Virus record (IMG/VR): IMGVR_UViG_3300028422_001968
Coordinates: 1-30,199 of that record
DNA from: a virus
DNA: 30,199 bases
Reading direction: 5' to 3' (one strand)
The position numbers were made by a program, and so were the translations under genes. Below, piece by piece: positions 21,080 through 29,746 of this stretch (its first letter is position 1; every line of letters starts with the position of its first letter). The notes beneath the pieces are model-generated. The model worked only from the letters and a program-made list of their open reading frames with translations. It made no database searches and was not told the DNA's origin.

Positions 21080-21143
21080 AAATACAACTTATAGTATAAA
21101 TCTGCGGCTTTTATTCTCGAAAATACAATATATAGTATTGTAT
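21080..21143. promoter_or_regulatory. Paired AT-rich near-repeats and palindrome before the ogr-like gene
   Basis: Two 18-base near-repeats, differing at two positions, start at 21080 and 21121 (AAATACAA, two variable bases, then TATAGTAT). The second extends into a 21-bp palindrome, ATACAATA-TATAG-TATTGTAT (21123..21143), which ends 21 bases before the ATG of the activator gene. This looks like a regulated promoter or operator pair for that gene. No convincing -35/-10 pair was found. Confidence 0.45.
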
Positions 21144-21164
21144 AAAGCAAAAGGGGAGAGGCAC

Positions 21165-21422
21165 ATGAGGTTGAGGTGTCCTTACTGCAACGGGAAAACA
21201 GTGATAACGCATCATCAGGTCGTCGACAAGCGGGTTTCGTTTGCGTATGTGACCTGTACCAATCACGAGTGCGGCGCCAGAAGCAAGATCCGGATCAGTT
21301 ACGCCGGCACGATCACGCCGCCGGCGTCCGACCTCTATACCGCCATGCACGAATGGTTCGCCAATCTCCCCGAAGATGAACAGAAAAAGATCGCCCGCCA
21401 ATATCAACCCGCGCTGTTTTGA
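21165..21422 (+). CDS. Ogr/Delta-type zinc-finger late transcription activator
   Basis: An 85-residue protein starting MRLRCPYC. Cys5, Cys8, Cys31 and Cys36 give the CX2C...CX4C pattern of the P2 Ogr and P4 Delta activators, which bind a zinc ion and recruit RNA polymerase to late promoters. AAGGGGAG lies just upstream of the ATG at 21165. A TTG nine codons earlier is in frame but less likely. The basic stretch after the finger (ARSKIRISYAG) also fits the family. Probable targets are the O and P promoters in the 19113..19293 gap. Confidence 0.87.
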   Translation: MRLRCPYCNGKTVITHHQVVDKRVSFAYVTCTNHECGARSKIRISYAGTITPPASDLYTAMHEWFANLPEDEQKKIARQYQPALF

Positions 21423-22174: not shown

Positions 22175-22465
22175 TTACGCAAAGGCCAAAGTGTGAATTC
22201 GAGGCAGTTCTTCAGCCAATTCGCTCTGTGCCTTGGCAATATCATACAGTTCCTGAAGCCCAAGCCAAAACTCCGGCTTATTGCCGAAAAACTTAGCCAG
22301 TCTGACGGCGGTGTCCGCAGTAATTGCCCGACTGCCGTTGACAATGGCATTGATCCGGCGCACCGGAACCCGTATTTCCAATGCCAGCTTATTTTGCGAC
22401 AGATTGTAATCTTCCAAAAACTCAGCCAAAGCCATTCCCGGATGTACATTTGTAATATCAGCCAT
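22175..22465 (-). CDS. higA: HigA-family antitoxin
   Basis: A 96-residue protein matching HigA: HPGMALAEFLEDYNLSQNKLAL at residues 8-29, VPVRRINAIVNGSRAITADTAVRLAKFFG (about 33-61) and KPEFWLGLQELYDIAKAQ. HigA binds and neutralises the HigB mRNA-cleaving toxin and represses its own operon through the helix-turn-helix. It follows the toxin gene by 18 bp, the toxin-first order that marks higBA. AAGGGA upstream of the ATG supports the start. The reading frame is intact, unlike the toxin gene. Confidence 0.9.
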   Translation of the reverse strand: MADITNVHPGMALAEFLEDYNLSQNKLALEIRVPVRRINAIVNGSRAITADTAVRLAKFFGNKPEFWLGLQELYDIAKAQSELAEELPRIHTLAFA

Positions 22466-22483
22466 AATCTTTTCCCTTTTAAG

Positions 22484-22763
22484 TTAATGATAATCGGTGA
22501 ATTCAACATCAGCCGCATCAGAACCTGTCCACGTAAAACAAATTCGATACTGCTTGTCCACTCGAATTGAATACTGATTTTTTCTGTTGCCGCGCAACGC
22601 TTCCAATCGATTGCCCGGCGGCATAGACAAATCGCTCAATTCCGTTGCCAAAGTGAATGTAACGCAATTTCAAAAGTGTTTTTTGTTGCAGGACGCTGTT
22701 AAGCCTGGTCTTTTCCCCGTTCCAAATCTTTTCCGTCAATTTATCTTTAAAATTCTCGATCAT
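22484..22763 (-). pseudogene. higB: HigB-type toxin gene with a one-base frameshift
   Basis: The first part encodes MIENFKDKLTEKIWNGEK and continues to KLRYIHFG. From there the family's remaining residues are found in the +1 frame: ELSDLSMPPGNRLEALRG, then NRKNQYSIRV, DKQYRICFTWTG and a final VEFTDYH-stop at 22484..22486. Removing one G of the GG pair at 22648/22649 restores a 92-residue protein aligned without gaps to HigB, as remembered. The unshifted frame instead ends at 22518 as an 85-residue hybrid starting at 22775 or 22763. The toxin is therefore probably inactive, unless the base is an assembly error or a frameshift occurs. The RelE-like catalytic segment lies in the shifted half. 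Confidence 0.85.
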
Positions 22764-22798
22764 TAATGACCCCAAGCTTTTATTTTCATGTCTCTATA

Positions 22799-22878: not shown

Positions 22879-23091
22879 TTATGGAACAATGCTGAAGAGC
22901 AACACCCGGAAACGGCTTCTCTCCGTTTTGCTGGCGTTGCTTTGGGCGAACAGCCGGTCAAGCGCCCGGCGATAGCGGTTGACGGCGGCGAGCTCGATCT
23001 CACGGACTACGTCGTCCGGAACGTCGATGCTGATGTCAGTCTTGACTCCGAGCTGCCAGTGAATGATTTCTTTTGCGGCATATGTTTTCAT
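22879..23091 (-). CDS. Small unknown protein, last gene of the C4-controlled operon
   Basis: A 70-residue protein beginning MKTYAAKEIIHWQLGVKTD, with a basic helical C-terminal half containing a NRYRRALDRLF motif. GGAGG lies 9 bases before the ATG. It is preceded by the 23110..23421 gene (18-bp gap) and followed by the terminator. I recognise no family. The mixed charged and hydrophobic helix could bind protein or nucleic acid, but nothing specific can be said. Confidence 0.6.
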   Translation of the reverse strand: MKTYAAKEIIHWQLGVKTDISIDVPDDVVREIELAAVNRYRRALDRLFAQSNASKTERSRFRVLLFSIVP

Positions 23092-23109: not shown

Positions 23110-23421
23110 TCAGGTAGTGAGTTCTTCGGCTTGCTGCAACGATTCGACCAACGGCTCAGGCTTTATCTCTTCCCCGGCGTTGGCCAGCTCTTCGCAAGCC
23201 GCGAACACAATATTGCGGATGCACTCGTTGACGAACGGGCATTGCTTTTTGACGCACAGTTGCTGAATGACTTCGTCCGTCTGCTCGAGCAACGCGGAAC
23301 GGATTGCGTCCCACAATGTTTCCTTGCCGGAAAATTCGGACAGCTGACCGATGCCGGACACCAGACTTTCCCGGCGGGCGGCGTCGGCCACTTCTTTACT
23401 GAGAAAATATTCTACAGACAT
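23110..23421 (-). CDS. Unknown protein with a cysteine cluster, C4-controlled operon
   Basis: A 103-residue, mostly helical, acidic protein. It has a short cysteine cluster, CVKKQCPFVNEC (about residues 56-67), followed by FAACEEL, a possible metal site. GGAGGTGT just before the ATG is a strong ribosome site. It overlaps the end of the 41-residue gene by 10 bp, which implies coupled translation. The product is not recognised. Confidence 0.6.
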   Translation of the reverse strand: MSVEYFLSKEVADAARRESLVSGIGQLSEFSGKETLWDAIRSALLEQTDEVIQQLCVKKQCPFVNECIRNIVFAACEELANAGEEIKPEPLVESLQQAEELTT

Positions 23422-23547: not shown

Positions 23548-23988
23548 TTAAACCGCGGTTTGGCCGATGAGCGGGAAGTCTTTGCGGTGTGCGCGCCAGT
23601 TATAGCGGGAACGACAGTGCAGCTCGGCGCGGAGTTCCTTGATCTCAAGAATCAGCAAGCCAAGTTCGTGCTCGGTGTGTTTGATGACTTCGGCGCGTTG
23701 AAAGAACGCCTCCAGAAAATGCTGGATGCGCAGGTTGTCGATATTGCGGAAATGGTCGTAGTTTACCGCGCGGAAACCGGCTCCGGTCATTTCGGTGGCG
23801 ACGTGTTCCGGGAGCATCAGCAGGTTGGCCAGTTTCGCGCCGAGATCGCCGACAATGCCATCCAGTGTGTCCCGGTCGATACGGTAACGGGCGCAGATTT
23901 CCTTTTTGACCAGTTCGATTTTACGGTCTGCCGCGTCATCGGCCTGCAGAACGCTTTCCGGCGGGTACGTAGTGTGCTTTCCAGACAT
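23548..23988 (-). CDS. Unknown protein, first gene and direct target of the C4 antisense RNA
   Basis: A 146-residue, mainly helical protein with no recognised domain: an acidic N-terminus (ESVLQADDAADRKIEL), hydrophobic helices (LANLLMLPEHVATEM), and a basic tail (HCRSRYNWRAHRKDF). The start at 23988 is chosen because GGAG lies 8 bases upstream. An ATG six bases earlier is too close to that site. The site itself is the b2 target of the C4 RNA, so translation should be blocked when C4 RNA is abundant. In P1 the corresponding gene order leads to the antirepressor Ant. No similarity to Ant proteins is seen here, but an equivalent role is a reasonable guess. Confidence 0.65.
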   Translation of the reverse strand: MSGKHTTYPPESVLQADDAADRKIELVKKEICARYRIDRDTLDGIVGDLGAKLANLLMLPEHVATEMTGAGFRAVNYDHFRNIDNLRIQHFLEAFFQRAEVIKHTEHELGLLILEIKELRAELHCRSRYNWRAHRKDFPLIGQTAV

Positions 23989-23995
23989 TTTCATG

Positions 23996-24026
23996 TCTCC
24001 TTTTTTCATTGCCCATCTCACTGGGC
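23996..24026 (-). promoter_or_regulatory. C4 RNA target copy 2 (a2/b2) over the ribosome binding site
   Basis: In the minus-strand RNA a hairpin GCCCA-GUGAGA-UGGGC (24011..24026) is followed by AAAAAAGGAGA (23996..24006), which holds the Shine-Dalgarno of the 23548..23988 gene. UGAGAU in the hairpin is complementary to AUCUCA in the C4 RNA. AAAGGAGA is complementary to its UUUCCUUU loop, with one G-U pair. Confidence 0.82.
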
Positions 24027-24029
24027 GTT

Positions 24030-24105
24030 AAAAAGGCTGACTGCGGATCGTTGAGATTACAGGTAAAGGAAACCTGCATGTCCGAAGACACCACCACAGT
24101 CAGCC
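24030..24105 (-). ncRNA. c4: C4-type antisense RNA (phage P1/P7 c4 class)
   Basis: The minus-strand RNA has a 12-bp outer stem, GGCUGACUGUGG with CCGCAGUCAGCC, containing one G-U wobble. The other strand would have a C-A mismatch there, so this strand is the RNA. Inside are a UGUC-UUCG-GACA hairpin and a CAGGU-UUCCUUU-ACCUG hairpin, then single-stranded AAUCUCAAC, and five U residues follow the outer stem. Region b' (UUUCCUUU, 24065..24072) and region a' (AUCUCA, within 24050..24058) match target copies on both sides. This is the arrangement of the P1/P7 c4 RNA, which silences the antirepressor operon, and it resembles the P4 CI RNA. The UUCG hairpin and GGUUUCC loop agree with the C4 consensus as I remember it. 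Confidence 0.9.
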
Positions 24106-24123
24106 AAGAAAATCAAACGGGAT

Positions 24124-24154
24124 TTTCCTTTTTTGTATGCCATCTCACTGGCAT
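24124..24154 (-). promoter_or_regulatory. C4 RNA target copy 1 (a1/b1) at the 5' end of the leader
   Basis: Near the predicted transcript start, AUGCCA-GUGAGA-UGGCAU (24137..24154) forms a hairpin with the same GUGAGA loop as copy 2, followed by an A-rich run with AAAGGAAA (24124..24131), a perfect 8-base complement of the C4 b' loop. It lies upstream of the C4 RNA. In P1/P7 two such copies flank C4 in the same way. Confidence 0.82.
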
Positions 24155-24163
24155 ATGAAACAA

Positions 24164-24192
24164 ACAATACGGCTTTTTCCGTATTTTGTCAA
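24164..24192 (-). promoter_or_regulatory. Strong leftward promoter with a 20-bp operator in the spacer
   Basis: Minus strand: TTGACA (24187..24192), 17-bp spacer, TATTGT (24164..24169), with a predicted start near 24156. The spacer and -10 hold the perfect palindrome AATACGG-N6-CCGTATT (24166..24185). A protein bound there would block polymerase. The divergent HTH protein at 24265..24999 is the obvious candidate. The transcript begins with the a1 hairpin and reads through the C4 RNA into four genes. Confidence 0.85.
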
Positions 24193-24199
24193 ATATGAT

Positions 24200-24229
24200 T
24201 TGCAAAAAAAATATAGAATAACATATTTT
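24200..24229 (+). promoter_or_regulatory. Weak candidate promoter for the divergent repressor-like gene
   Basis: TTGCAA (24200..24205) and TATTTT (24224..24229) on the plus strand are 18 bp apart and lie back to back with the leftward promoter. Transcription would begin about 30 bases before the ATG at 24265. The match to consensus is modest and the region is generally AT-rich, so alternatives are possible. Confidence 0.35.
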
Positions 24230-24264
24230 GTAGATAGTTTTAACAAAAACGAAAGAGGGACAAG

Positions 24265-24999
24265 ATGGGAAAAGTAGATTTGGGTTTCGCAGCTGCCGAT
24301 GCGCTTGACCATTATATGAATCGTTATTGCGATGCCACTGCAAAAGAAATGGGGGAAAAACTAGGTGTTGCCGCATCAACAGTGGGCCGATGGAGAGGTA
24401 ATCCATTTTCTCAAGTTGAACCGGAAAAAATTGTGTTGATAAAGAACTTATGCGCGGAAACTTGGCCCAGCCCGGAAAAGATTGCGGAAATGGAGGACGA
24501 ATGGGACGGCTGCCTTATCTCCGAACGCAGAGGATGCTACTCTAAGTCCAGAGGAACTTGTGTTCCTCTTGATGATGATTCCTACAACGAGAGAGCAGAA
24601 CAAAAAGAATACGAGAGAACTGTTGCCAAACGTAAAAACGAAATGCACTACAAGCGAGTCGTTATGCTTGAGAAAAAATATAGTTTACCAGAGTTAAGAG
24701 GTAAATATTTCAGAAGCATCCGTTATAACCTTCTTATTGAGCTGTCAAAAGATTTGAGCATGCATCTGCCCGACATAATTGAAAAATATCCACAGTGCAA
24801 AGGCATAATATACCATAATGACCAAAAGTTCTGGGGAACCAATGCCAATAAATCACTCGTTGAGCTGGCCAACATTTCCCAAGAAAATCTGAGCCGCAAT
24901 GACAGATTCAATGTTTTCACGAAGAACGAGCAACAACAACTTGTCGGATGCTTTCCTGCAATAATTGTTATAGCGTTGTTGATCCTAGCTGTTATATAA
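24265..24999 (+). CDS. Putative phage repressor with N-terminal HTH and C-terminal membrane helix
   Basis: A 244-residue protein. Residues about 24-45 (ATAKEMGEKLGVAASTVGRWRG) are a helix-turn-helix of CI/Cro type. The middle is long, charged and helical, with no recognisable LexA/CI peptidase motifs. The last 18 residues (227-244, VGCFPAIIVIALLILAVI) are hydrophobic and would anchor the protein in the membrane by its tail. AGAGGGAC supports the ATG. The gene is AT-rich compared with its neighbours. It diverges from the C4-controlled operon and probably binds the palindrome in that promoter. If it is the immunity repressor, the membrane tail is unusual and suggests induction by a membrane signal instead of RecA-stimulated cleavage. 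The repressor role is inferred. Confidence 0.7.
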   Translation: MGKVDLGFAAADALDHYMNRYCDATAKEMGEKLGVAASTVGRWRGNPFSQVEPEKIVLIKNLCAETWPSPEKIAEMEDEWDGCLISERRGCYSKSRGTCVPLDDDSYNERAEQKEYERTVAKRKNEMHYKRVVMLEKKYSLPELRGKYFRSIRYNLLIELSKDLSMHLPDIIEKYPQCKGIIYHNDQKFWGTNANKSLVELANISQENLSRNDRFNVFTKNEQQQLVGCFPAIIVIALLILAVI

Positions 25000-28047: not shown

Positions 28048-28284
28048 TTATTGATATTCAATGGTGTCGCACTTGCGGCAACGCATCCGGTTCTGGCCGG
28101 AATGGGGATGGACGCCGTCCGGCCGAAATTCATGTCCGCCGGTTTTCAGGCAAACCGCCACGTCCAGCTGGCGTATTTCCGATATCAGCTTGTTAGCTTC
28201 GCTGTTCAATTCGAGCACGCGAAGCTGCCGGGCATTCATGGCCGCATACAATTCGTCCGGCGTTGCCTGGGGATCGATGTACAT
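28048..28284 (-). CDS. Small protein with C-terminal His/Cys metal-binding motif
   Basis: A 78-residue protein starting at the ATG at 28284 (MYIDPQATPDELYAAM), because GGAGGTTTGAG is directly upstream. The longer frame from 28323 has no good site. An acidic helical N-terminal half leads to CLKTGGHEF..., HPHSGQNRMRCRKC and a short end, so a zinc-finger-type site is likely. It begins one base after the ParB-like gene stops. The family is not recognised. A nucleic-acid-binding role is possible. Confidence 0.62.
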   Translation of the reverse strand: MYIDPQATPDELYAAMNARQLRVLELNSEANKLISEIRQLDVAVCLKTGGHEFRPDGVHPHSGQNRMRCRKCDTIEYQ

Positions 28285-28285
28285 C

Positions 28286-29746
28286 TCAAACCTCCAACAT
28301 GCTTTGAGGTACGGGGATTTCATTGATCGCGGACATCATGTATTCATCCCATTCCAGGTTCAGCAGCTTGCAGACCTCGAGCGCGGCATCGATGGACAAA
28401 TCAGCCAGCCGAGTTTCCGATTCGCATTTGATCGCCTGACCGATGTCGCCTTTGATCCAGCGCCACTGCCGCCGGGTAATTTCCTTCATCGGCGCGGCCA
28501 TGGCGGCCGCCAGACTGTCGAGGCCCGGCTCGAAGGGACAATCATCCTGCCAGCCGCCGATGCTGTCGACGCCGCGCAAGCCGATCAGACGGACCAACGT
28601 TTCGAGATCCGGCTCCGGCAGTTCGTTATTCAGGATATGTTCGTACAGCTTTTCCAGGGCGCGTTTCCAGCGGCGTTTTTCCAGACGTTCAACCGGATCC
28701 TCGACGATCACCGGCGCGGCAGTACCGCCGGAGGAAGGGGCGGCGGTATCATTCTTTCGGATCCGGCAGTAAGTCCCGGCGCCGTCACCTCCGACGATAT
28801 AGGCGTTGGCTTCCGCTTCCGGAACATCATTGTCCAGAATTTCAAAGTCATGCTTGTCGACGGAACCGAACTTTGGTTTTTCGTTGTAACAATAACTGTT
28901 GGTGACCAGTTCGATTTTTCGTTCCGGCTGAGTCTTGATCACTTTGACTTCGGCCTGGACGGCGGCGGCGGTTTTACGGTCCCAGCATTTGGGATCGAGA
29001 CACCGGTCTTCTTCCGGATCCTTCAGTTCATCGAACAGCCACGGTTCGGCCAGCGACCGATGCGGACAATCGGCACATTCGCCGGTGGGGAATCCGGCAT
29101 CGAGCAGCCGCCGGCAGAAATATTTATCCAACATGAAGGTAAAATTCTCGACGCTGCCGGGATGATCGAAGGTGCCAGGCTGATGGAACCCCTTGTGCAG
29201 ATGTTCCTGGACGGAGGCAGGGAAGCGGCTGATCGCGGCGTAATGCCCGATCTTCATTGCCGGGAAGCGCTCTTTCATCATGGCGTCCATCCAGTACGGA
29301 ATCAGACTGCAGAACTGCAGCCGCAGCCGGATGTATTTTTCCGACCGGCCCAGCAGCGAGGCGATTTCCGCGACGTCATAGCGTTCCCGGAGCTGACTGA
29401 GCTGTGCAACTTCCTCCGTCAACGCCACCGCCCGGCGTTCGAAGTTTTCGACAAAGGAAATAAGTTCCGGATCGTCGGTGTCCAGCAGCCGGTAGTGGTC
29501 TGCCGGCAGCTCGTACCGTTCCAGGAGCATCAGTGCCAGGAAGCGGCAGCGTCCGGCGATGACGTCATATTTCTTGCCGTCGATTTCCGGTGCCAGCCTG
29601 GCCAGCGTGATCGGATTAATCAGACCGGTGTTGCCGATCGACGCCGCCATGCTCTTGACGTCGTCGTCGGTGATCTCGCGGTTCTTGACACAGCGGATCT
29701 CGTTCAGGTTAATGTTTACAGGAACTTTCGCGGTTGCCTTTTTCAT
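28286..29746 (-). CDS. ParB/RepB-type DNA-binding protein
   Basis: A 486-residue protein. The N-terminal ParB domain (about 10-115) has MAASIGNTGLINPITLAR, YDVIAGRCRFLALMLL and ENFERRAVALTEEV, which correspond to the conserved ParB boxes. A helix-turn-helix follows (about 124-145, DVAEIASLLGRSEKYIRLRL). The long C-terminal part has two cysteine-rich segments (CADCPHRS, CLDPKCW) and is not familiar. Such long ParB-like proteins appear in early regions of several temperate and Mu-like phages, where they may act in DNA replication, partition or regulation. No ParA-type ATPase is visible here. The start overlaps the small upstream gene as ATGA. Confidence 0.86.
   Translation of the reverse strand: MKKATAKVPVNINLNEIRCVKNREITDDDVKSMAASIGNTGLINPITLARLAPEIDGKKYDVIAGRCRFLALMLLERYELPADHYRLLDTDDPELISFVENFERRAVALTEEVAQLSQLRERYDVAEIASLLGRSEKYIRLRLQFCSLIPYWMDAMMKERFPAMKIGHYAAISRFPASVQEHLHKGFHQPGTFDHPGSVENFTFMLDKYFCRRLLDAGFPTGECADCPHRSLAEPWLFDELKDPEEDRCLDPKCWDRKTAAAVQAEVKVIKTQPERKIELVTNSYCYNEKPKFGSVDKHDFEILDNDVPEAEANAYIVGGDGAGTYCRIRKNDTAAPSSGGTAAPVIVEDPVERLEKRRWKRALEKLYEHILNNELPEPDLETLVRLIGLRGVDSIGGWQDDCPFEPGLDSLAAAMAAPMKEITRRQWRWIKGDIGQAIKCESETRLADLSIDAALEVCKLLNLEWDEYMMSAINEIPVPQSMLEV

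Follow-up and report, generated by a model that had tools for sequence, protein, structure and literature searches.

The closest described counterpart of the locus reported here is the C4 antisense RNA of phages P1 and P7. In P1 and P7, the 5′ end of C4 is generated by RNase P and the RNA acts in trans, with b′ partly occluding ribosome sites and a′ conferring specificity (PMC5320573); its role in P1 is also described (PMC12197685, PMC8546580). The literature also lists C4 under ‘Proteobacteria, phages’ (PMC2864571), gives proteobacterial orders and Caudovirales as the orders of a 2010 C4 survey (PMC5320573), and describes P22 sar as a small phage RNA that holds down antirepressor or early genes (PMC12197685). 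The P1 sequence record lists a promoter, a1, b1, c4, a2, b2, icd and ant1/ant2. The P4 CI RNA also restrains antirepressor or early genes; P22 sar and P4 CI are, like the RNA reported here, small phage RNAs, and their fold and target layout presumably differ from it.

The DNA analysed, here called the window, is a stretch of 30,199 nucleotides from a virus record (IMGVR_UViG_3300028422_001968) that corresponds to positions 12390-42588 of a 42.6-kb contig. The first 12 kb of the contig carry bacterial genes (YidC, KhpB-like, glycosyltransferase, oxidoreductase) and are followed by P2-type baseplate, tail, capsid, scaffold and terminase genes; the phage was therefore taken to be a prophage. Among named bacterial records, the best match to its terminase (70%) was that of Victivallales bacterium CSMAG_1858, and because the C4 places agree, this genome was taken to be the one listed in the same order as the window's. 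Victivallales belongs to Lentisphaerota, a host group outside the ‘Proteobacteria, phages’ entry in PMC2864571. A literature search covering titles and the beginnings of abstracts, with most subscription papers outside it, returned no report of C4 in this phylum. An Ogr/Delta-like zinc-finger protein, expected for late control in P2-like phages, is encoded next to the terminase at 21138-21422 (+). Two weak PADLOC matches (E 1.4e-4 and 4.4e-5) were set aside.

On the minus strand, the 197 bases from 24192 to 23996 hold a promoter-like site, a first target, a small hairpin, a 71-nt RNA, a U-tract and a second target before the next gene:

24164-24192, minus: sigma-70-type promoter-like site (-35 TTGACA at 24192-24187, -10 TATTGT at 24169-24164, spacer 17)
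24136-24155, minus: target a′1, hairpin UAUGCCA-GUGAGA-UGGCAUA, with pairing letters UGAGAU at 24147-24142
24124-24131, minus: target b′1, AAAGGAAA, complementary to the C4 loop UUUCCUUU
24108-24127, minus: small hairpin GAAAAUC-CCGUUU-GAUUUUC, predicted by folding, which separates target 1 from C4 and overlaps b′1
24035-24105, minus: C4-type RNA, a three-way junction of 71 nt (covariance model, fold, covariation)
24105-24094 with 24046-24035, minus: basal stem of the C4 RNA, 12 bp with one G-U (fold)
24072-24065, minus: loop UUUCCUUU of hairpin 2 of the C4 RNA, which also has a UUCG hairpin
24057-24052, minus: specificity segment AUCUCA of the C4 RNA, 3′ of hairpin 2, the complement of both target copies
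24030-24034, minus: U-tract directly after the basal stem, terminator-like in sequence
24011-24026, minus: target a′2, hairpin GCCCA-GUGAGA-UGGGC, with pairing letters UGAGAU at 24020-24015
23996-24003, minus: target b′2, AAAGGAGA, the Shine-Dalgarno region of the next gene (AAGGAG at 24002-23997)

Most of these parts had been proposed in a sequence-only reading, and they were recovered here: the GUGAGA hairpin and both flanking target copies are present base by base, the C4-shaped RNA lies on the minus strand with its single G-U in the 12-bp stem, and the complementarity of the hairpin-2 loop and of AUCUCA to both copies holds letter by letter. The UGAGAU of a′1 pairs with the AUCUCA segment; as the hairpin loop proper is GUGAGA, pairing of all six AUCUCA letters opens the closing A-U pair. 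The basal stem begins with GGC. The second target copy falls on the ribosome site of the next gene, as claimed, with AAGGAG inside b′2 at 24003-23996, and the gene may start at ATG 23994 or at ATG 23988, of which the latter is better spaced from AAGGAG. The promoter that had been called strong is there as TTGACA-17-TATTGT (24192-24164, 10/12 to consensus); taken alone, this match is weak, because two promoter-like sites were found in a 501-base region against 0.7 expected by chance.

Two of the checks suggested with that reading came out in its favour. The Rfam C4 model (RF01695) gave a significant, full-length match of 37.5 bits on the minus strand, with E = 9.7e-6 when a 381-base stretch was compared with all 4227 Rfam families and E = 1.9e-5 when the C4 model alone was run against the whole 3.2-Mb genome. 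This score lies under the gathering score of 45 bits, so an Rfam scan of the window at curated cut-offs is empty. Folding gave a stable three-way junction (-34.9 kcal/mol against -18.2 ± 2.7 for 200 shuffled sequences, none as good; z = -6.3) with a long basal stem, a UUCG hairpin, a second hairpin and a single-stranded segment.

Related loci were sought among viral stretches with a related terminase, of which the best 80 of 242 were kept, and among bacterial genomes. The Rfam C4 model was run on 40 records (39 of the best 80 viral contigs and the genome that carries L090) and matched in seven. Five of these were over the cut-off; the others were a phage in a viral contig (L002; 17.7 bits), whose terminase matches that of the window at 74%, and a Victivallales MAG (L155; 30.3 bits). 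A covariance model, R1, was then built from the three junctions of the window, L002 and L155 with all targets excluded; its 94.7-bit score on the window RNA is a self-match. R1 found two further loci: L090, which is the same as L165 and lies beside the terminase in the MAG of L155, and L166, which is the same as L167 and lies in another genome. Besides the window's, four C4-type loci were thus found, one in a viral contig and the other three spread over two genomes from the same order.

The Rfam model has low sensitivity for this branch of C4: L002/L143 and L090 carry the RNA and their scans were empty. In L002, C4 was undetected at E 0.1 against all Rfam families and gave E 0.018 when searched alone; scans of L002-L004 at E 0.1, and of L090, L142, L143, L147 and L149 at E 0.05, returned nothing. 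With R1 under strict filters, and counting the window's own genome, 3 of 137 genomes of the order and 2 of 387 of the phylum were positive; in the draw of 387, no match to the Rfam C4 model at E <= 0.01, likewise with strict filters, was seen besides the window's. L003, which has the second-closest terminase among the best 80 of 242 viral stretches, had no C4 match in its record and no R1 match in the part searched; C4 is therefore not taken to be general among P2-like phages of this group. A DNA pattern for C4 picked out nine viral-contig stretches, of which one (L143, again the L002 phage) was accepted and eight were rejected by eye; other pattern searches for C4, and for the R2 family described below, gave no matches in viral contigs. 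The sequence-only reading had placed the RNA in a P2-type phage, and the gene content agrees; the combination is not unusual in itself, since five of the 40 P2-like records were over the cut-off. The loci behind those matches (L150-L154, L157) likewise combine a P2-type terminase and C4 in one record, and differ from the present group in a score over the cut-off and in having at most three U after the RNA. One of these records (G426; L150 and L157) contains two C4 RNAs that score strongly, at 83.4 and 75.8 bits, and a BRO-N-like reading frame was seen by eye after the C4 of L153.

The five loci of the present group differ in the specificity segment of the RNA, and their target loops change accordingly. 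The RNA segment and target loop are AUCUCA and UGAGAU in the window, GUUUCA and UGAAAC in L002, and UGUUGAA and UUCAACA in L155; in the two loci discovered by R1, a model without any target, they are ACUCGAA and (G,U)UCGAGU (L090) and CUAUCAA and UUG(G,A)UAG (L166). All ten target copies form an a′ helix of 6-8 bp in a single register, four of them with G-U, and complementary regions matching a′ and b′ lie both before and after the RNA. The hairpin-2 loop also varies, being UUUCCUUA in L002, against targets UAAGGAAA and UAAGGAG, and UUCUCUU in L090, against AAGAGAA; b′ pairing showed no locus specificity between loci. When each RNA was assigned to each set of targets, the true matching was the best of the 120 assignments, which is the floor of the test (1/120), both for Watson-Crick helices (sum 61, next 52, mean 33.6) and with G-U allowed (65, next 59, mean 43.6). 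Some foreign fits are good once G-U is allowed (eight pairs for the L155 RNA on L166 targets, six for the L002 RNA on window targets), and without G-U the first target copy of L166 retains only three Watson-Crick pairs in a row; because the five loci share descent, the counts are not independent. One MAG (G331) contains two of the loci, L155 and L165, whose first proteins are 93% alike, and RNA and targets of the two cross-pair over at most five contiguous positions, G-U included.

The stems also co-vary. Across the five C4 sequences, 95.5% of cells are paired and 9 of 22 pairs show double changes, a number reached by 5 of 500 shuffles; the covariation score was reached by none of 500. The sequence-only reading had staked its claim on a C4 match and on conserved pairing in related phages, and pairing was found to co-vary in all five loci. 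That relatives alter the RNA and both targets in step suggests that the pairing matters. These data also bear on the proposal that the locus is functionless, a stable hairpin flanked by a direct repeat that is neutral or arose by chance. The Rfam score below the cut-off, the frequency with which promoter-like matches arise by chance in this stretch, and the finding that 1.9% of random loops reach six contiguous pairs when G-U is counted are in keeping with that proposal; the corresponding figure for two independent loops is 0.05%, although real copies are not independent. The joint shift of RNA and both target copies contradicts it, and further evidence against it comes from the co-varying stems and the conservation of the region, which is 80% alike between window (23983-24272) and L002 where the terminase gene is 72% alike. 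A functionless repeat is consequently regarded as exceedingly improbable.

Direct comparison with P1 was also possible. The window's order of parts (promoter, a′b′, C4 RNA, a′b′, gene) is that of the P1 annotation (P1c4 promoter, a1, b1, c4, a2, b2, icd), which bears out the P1/P7 arrangement originally proposed. P1 a′ (UUGACAG) pairs with the same C4 position as in the window and P1 b′ with the same loop, and R1 gave P1 c4 a score of 26.8 bits (E 1e-3), its second-best match in P1 reaching 15.1 bits. A search for exact complements recovered the annotated P1 targets, with a′ and b′ flanking C4 on either side; it recovered most targets on both sides in the five loci, missing a′1 of L166, which needs G-U, and b′2 of L090, and found flanking complements in whole or in part at the six over-cut-off loci. 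The shared features are thus a three-way junction with a UUCG hairpin, a hairpin-2 loop that pairs with b′ at a ribosome site, a segment 3′ of hairpin 2 that pairs with a′, targets on both sides and an upstream promoter on the same strand.

Several features set the window and its relatives apart from P1/P7. Besides the Rfam score below the cut-off, a′ lies in a hairpin loop, b′ is the Shine-Dalgarno sequence itself, a U-tract follows the RNA and no icd or ant was recognised in the operon. The U-tract amounts to 4-5 U after the basal stem in all five loci, against at most three in P1 and the six over-cut-off C4 loci (n = 7). A same-strand promoter-like site precedes the first target by consensus match in the group (10, 11, 11 and 8 of 12 for the best sites before the other four cores, weak in L166), and its -10 box ends 51-56 nt before the C4 core in all five loci, against 119 nt by the P1 annotation. 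Inverted repeats like the hairpin at 24108-24127 are visible in the other four loci, and folding predicts a hairpin in three of them, L166 being the exception. What is new here is the host group and a variant layout, comprising the short leader, the hairpin-borne a′, the U-tract and an operon in which no antirepressor is recognised.

The genes around the RNA were as follows:

23548-23994, minus: first gene after target 2, 148 aa (146 aa from ATG 23988), no family above cut-off, homologue in L002
23412-23537, minus: 41-aa peptide MNAPIVLGGCGHS..., whose C-terminal stretch is hydrophobic and which has a relative downstream of all five C4 loci
23110-23421, minus: 103-aa protein with a KKQCPFVN motif; in L002 and L167 the gene that comes first after C4 encodes a relative
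22879-23091, minus: 70-aa protein, conserved in L002
24265-24999, plus: divergent gene whose product is hydrophobic at its C-terminus and has a weak, sub-cut-off match to a CI-repressor HTH (E 0.079); a candidate for the partner regulator

The L002 homologue of the 148-aa protein is 46% identical. No other was found in genome contigs, viral contigs or named phages, and only the protein itself in 137 genomes of the order; as one of these searches missed the L002 homologue, the blank results are weak. An AlphaFold model from two sequences was too poor for a structure search (mean pLDDT 55.8). The first gene varies, being the 148-aa protein in the window, a CPFVN-type protein in L002 and L167 and, in both L155 (contig L158) and L090, a protein of 110 aa whose two copies are 93% alike. 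The gene order differs between window and L002, and the RNA stays first in both. The constant member is the peptide of about 40 aa, which has a GGCG(H/R)S motif and a hydrophobic stretch, no Pfam match, and relatives in L002, L158, L090, L167 and L184-L187. In viral contigs the peptide profile matched only the phage of L002, and in the order four genomes at E 0.001-0.009 were taken as chance matches. None of the operon proteins scanned (the CPFVN protein of L002 left out) had a Pfam match above cut-off, and the 148-aa and 103-aa proteins had no PHROG match; no antirepressor family was found among the proteins scanned, which match no family at all. The homologue of the divergent 24265-24999 product in L002 (14337-15965) is a 542-aa protein with a BRCT domain. 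Further along, 22175-22775 (-) holds an HTH gene that resembles an antitoxin (PHROG ‘plasmid antitoxin’), next to a short reading frame that matched nothing in Pfam; a YefM/RelE-like pair was seen by eye in the same place in the phages of L002 (12246-12768) and L167. A ParB-like protein at 28286-29746 (-) has about 40% identity in L002 and L003.

The best explanation for these observations is that a P2-like prophage carries here a C4-type antisense module whose RNA acts on a ribosome site in trans, a reading that we hold to be highly probable. C4-type control in this phage is well supported by the sequence evidence: the predicted fold, the duplicated targets, their co-variation with the RNA and the position of the putative promoter are each borne out by comparison. 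We infer that the locus is transcribed, that the RNA is released and represses, that it confers immunity, and that the operon has an anti-lysogeny role. One promoter would drive a transcript that starts at target copy 1 and runs through the C4 RNA and over target 2 into the operon. Once folded as a three-way junction, the RNA would contact the apical loop of the a′ hairpin through the variable segment by hairpin 2 (AUCUCA), giving specificity, and its hairpin-2 loop would pair with the Shine-Dalgarno region b′2. Translation of the first gene would thereby be blocked, and coupling, or transcription that stops early, could silence the remaining genes of the operon. The RNA may be set free by termination at the U-tract, by processing or by both, and would act in trans on the same phage type, which should give superinfection immunity of one specificity. 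The P1 logic, C4 against ant, is putative for this operon, in whose scanned proteins no antirepressor domain was found.

The same parts could be arranged differently. The junction and U-tract might serve mainly as an intrinsic terminator or leader switch, with loop contacts inside one mRNA and no free RNA. Such a cis-only attenuator would account for the four or five U directly after the stem in every locus, where the seven comparison C4 loci have at most three, and the R2 family described below appears suited to contacts within a transcript. It fits poorly with the presence of a complete target on each side of the RNA, of which the second covers the Shine-Dalgarno sequence as in P1, and with the two loci of G331, whose different specificities suit discrimination in trans; we consider it unlikely. 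The P4 CI RNA ends transcription early in the leader, and a trans-acting RNA could do so here instead of blocking the ribosome site, for which the target copy upstream of the RNA and the U-tract after it would be apt. With copy 2 on the Shine-Dalgarno sequence, and b′ identical to it, the first-order fit is translational, and this version of the immunity is judged quite unlikely. A sequence logic known from C4 recurs here in a distant phylum, where five natural specificities shift as threes (RNA, target 1, target 2); these sets provide a ready test bed for the origin of RNA immunity types.

The peptide profile also matched three genomes without C4 (G006 in three places, G117 and G138; E about 1e-7 or better). 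In G006 and G117 the peptide operon is preceded by another three-way junction; no such junction was found near the copy in G138. A covariance model, R2, was made from these four junctions and detected 21 loci in 16 of 137 genomes of the order; 17 of these loci had not been used in the model. They are numbered L188-L208, for example L188:1501-1568 (-), L201:859-926 (+) and L200:1501-1570 (-), and some are near duplicates. In a draw of 230 genomes of the phylum, 11 were positive, ten from the order and one from elsewhere in the class. Nineteen of the 21 loci were scanned with Rfam at E 0.1, and no family except tRNA was matched. The best R1 score on R2 loci was 20.9 bits (L175), the window's C4 RNA (24030-24107) had no R2 match, and an R2 match at 28088-28157 of the window (14.8 bits, E 0.26) was taken as chance.

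R2 resembles the C4-type locus in having a three-way junction before the Shine-Dalgarno sequence of an operon, usually a U-tract, and a variable loop that is complementary to upstream sequence, and four members precede the same kind of peptide operon. It differs in that the complement found lies upstream and no second copy on the Shine-Dalgarno sequence was noticed. In an alignment fitted to the model, 20 distinct rows had 94.9% of stem cells paired and double changes in 17 of 20 pairs, which none of 500 shuffles reached. In 19 of 21 loci, including 15 of the 17 that were new, the 200 nt upstream hold a stretch of 6 nt or more that exactly complements the variable hairpin-2 loop, against 22/410 for comparisons between loci and 260/4200 for shuffled controls; in 18 of 21 the stretch forms part of the loop of a hairpin that lies 64-102 nt upstream. 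Pairing of hairpin 1 with a second upstream hairpin (seven pairs in L188, six in L189, eight in L203) was not adopted, as the automatic test failed in many loci.

Of the proteins encoded by 11 R2 first genes, nine were scanned with both Pfam and PHROGs, one with Pfam and one with PHROGs. Four proved to be of antirepressor type, with pRha in three and BRO-N in one; two of these four come from a single genome, and the remaining proteins scanned had no Pfam or PHROG match. The follow-up has thus exposed a larger RNA family that Rfam does not know, with four members directly before antirepressor-type genes, and their position in this order hints at what the window's operon may do. Whether Victivallales phages carry a class of leader three-way-junction antisense RNAs, with C4 and R2 branches, that repress lysogeny-breaking operons and use hypervariable barcode loops to form many coexisting immunity groups is, in our estimate, evenly balanced. 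If so, R2 and C4 would hold down Rha/BRO-type antirepressors or a new small-membrane-peptide operon, and the loop barcodes would allow many immunity groups side by side, even in a single genome. The predicted duplex of the Shine-Dalgarno region with the arm that precedes the R2 core was on average stronger within a locus (-17.6 kcal/mol) than in comparisons between loci (-13.3, sd 3.9), which is at most suggestive of sequestration.
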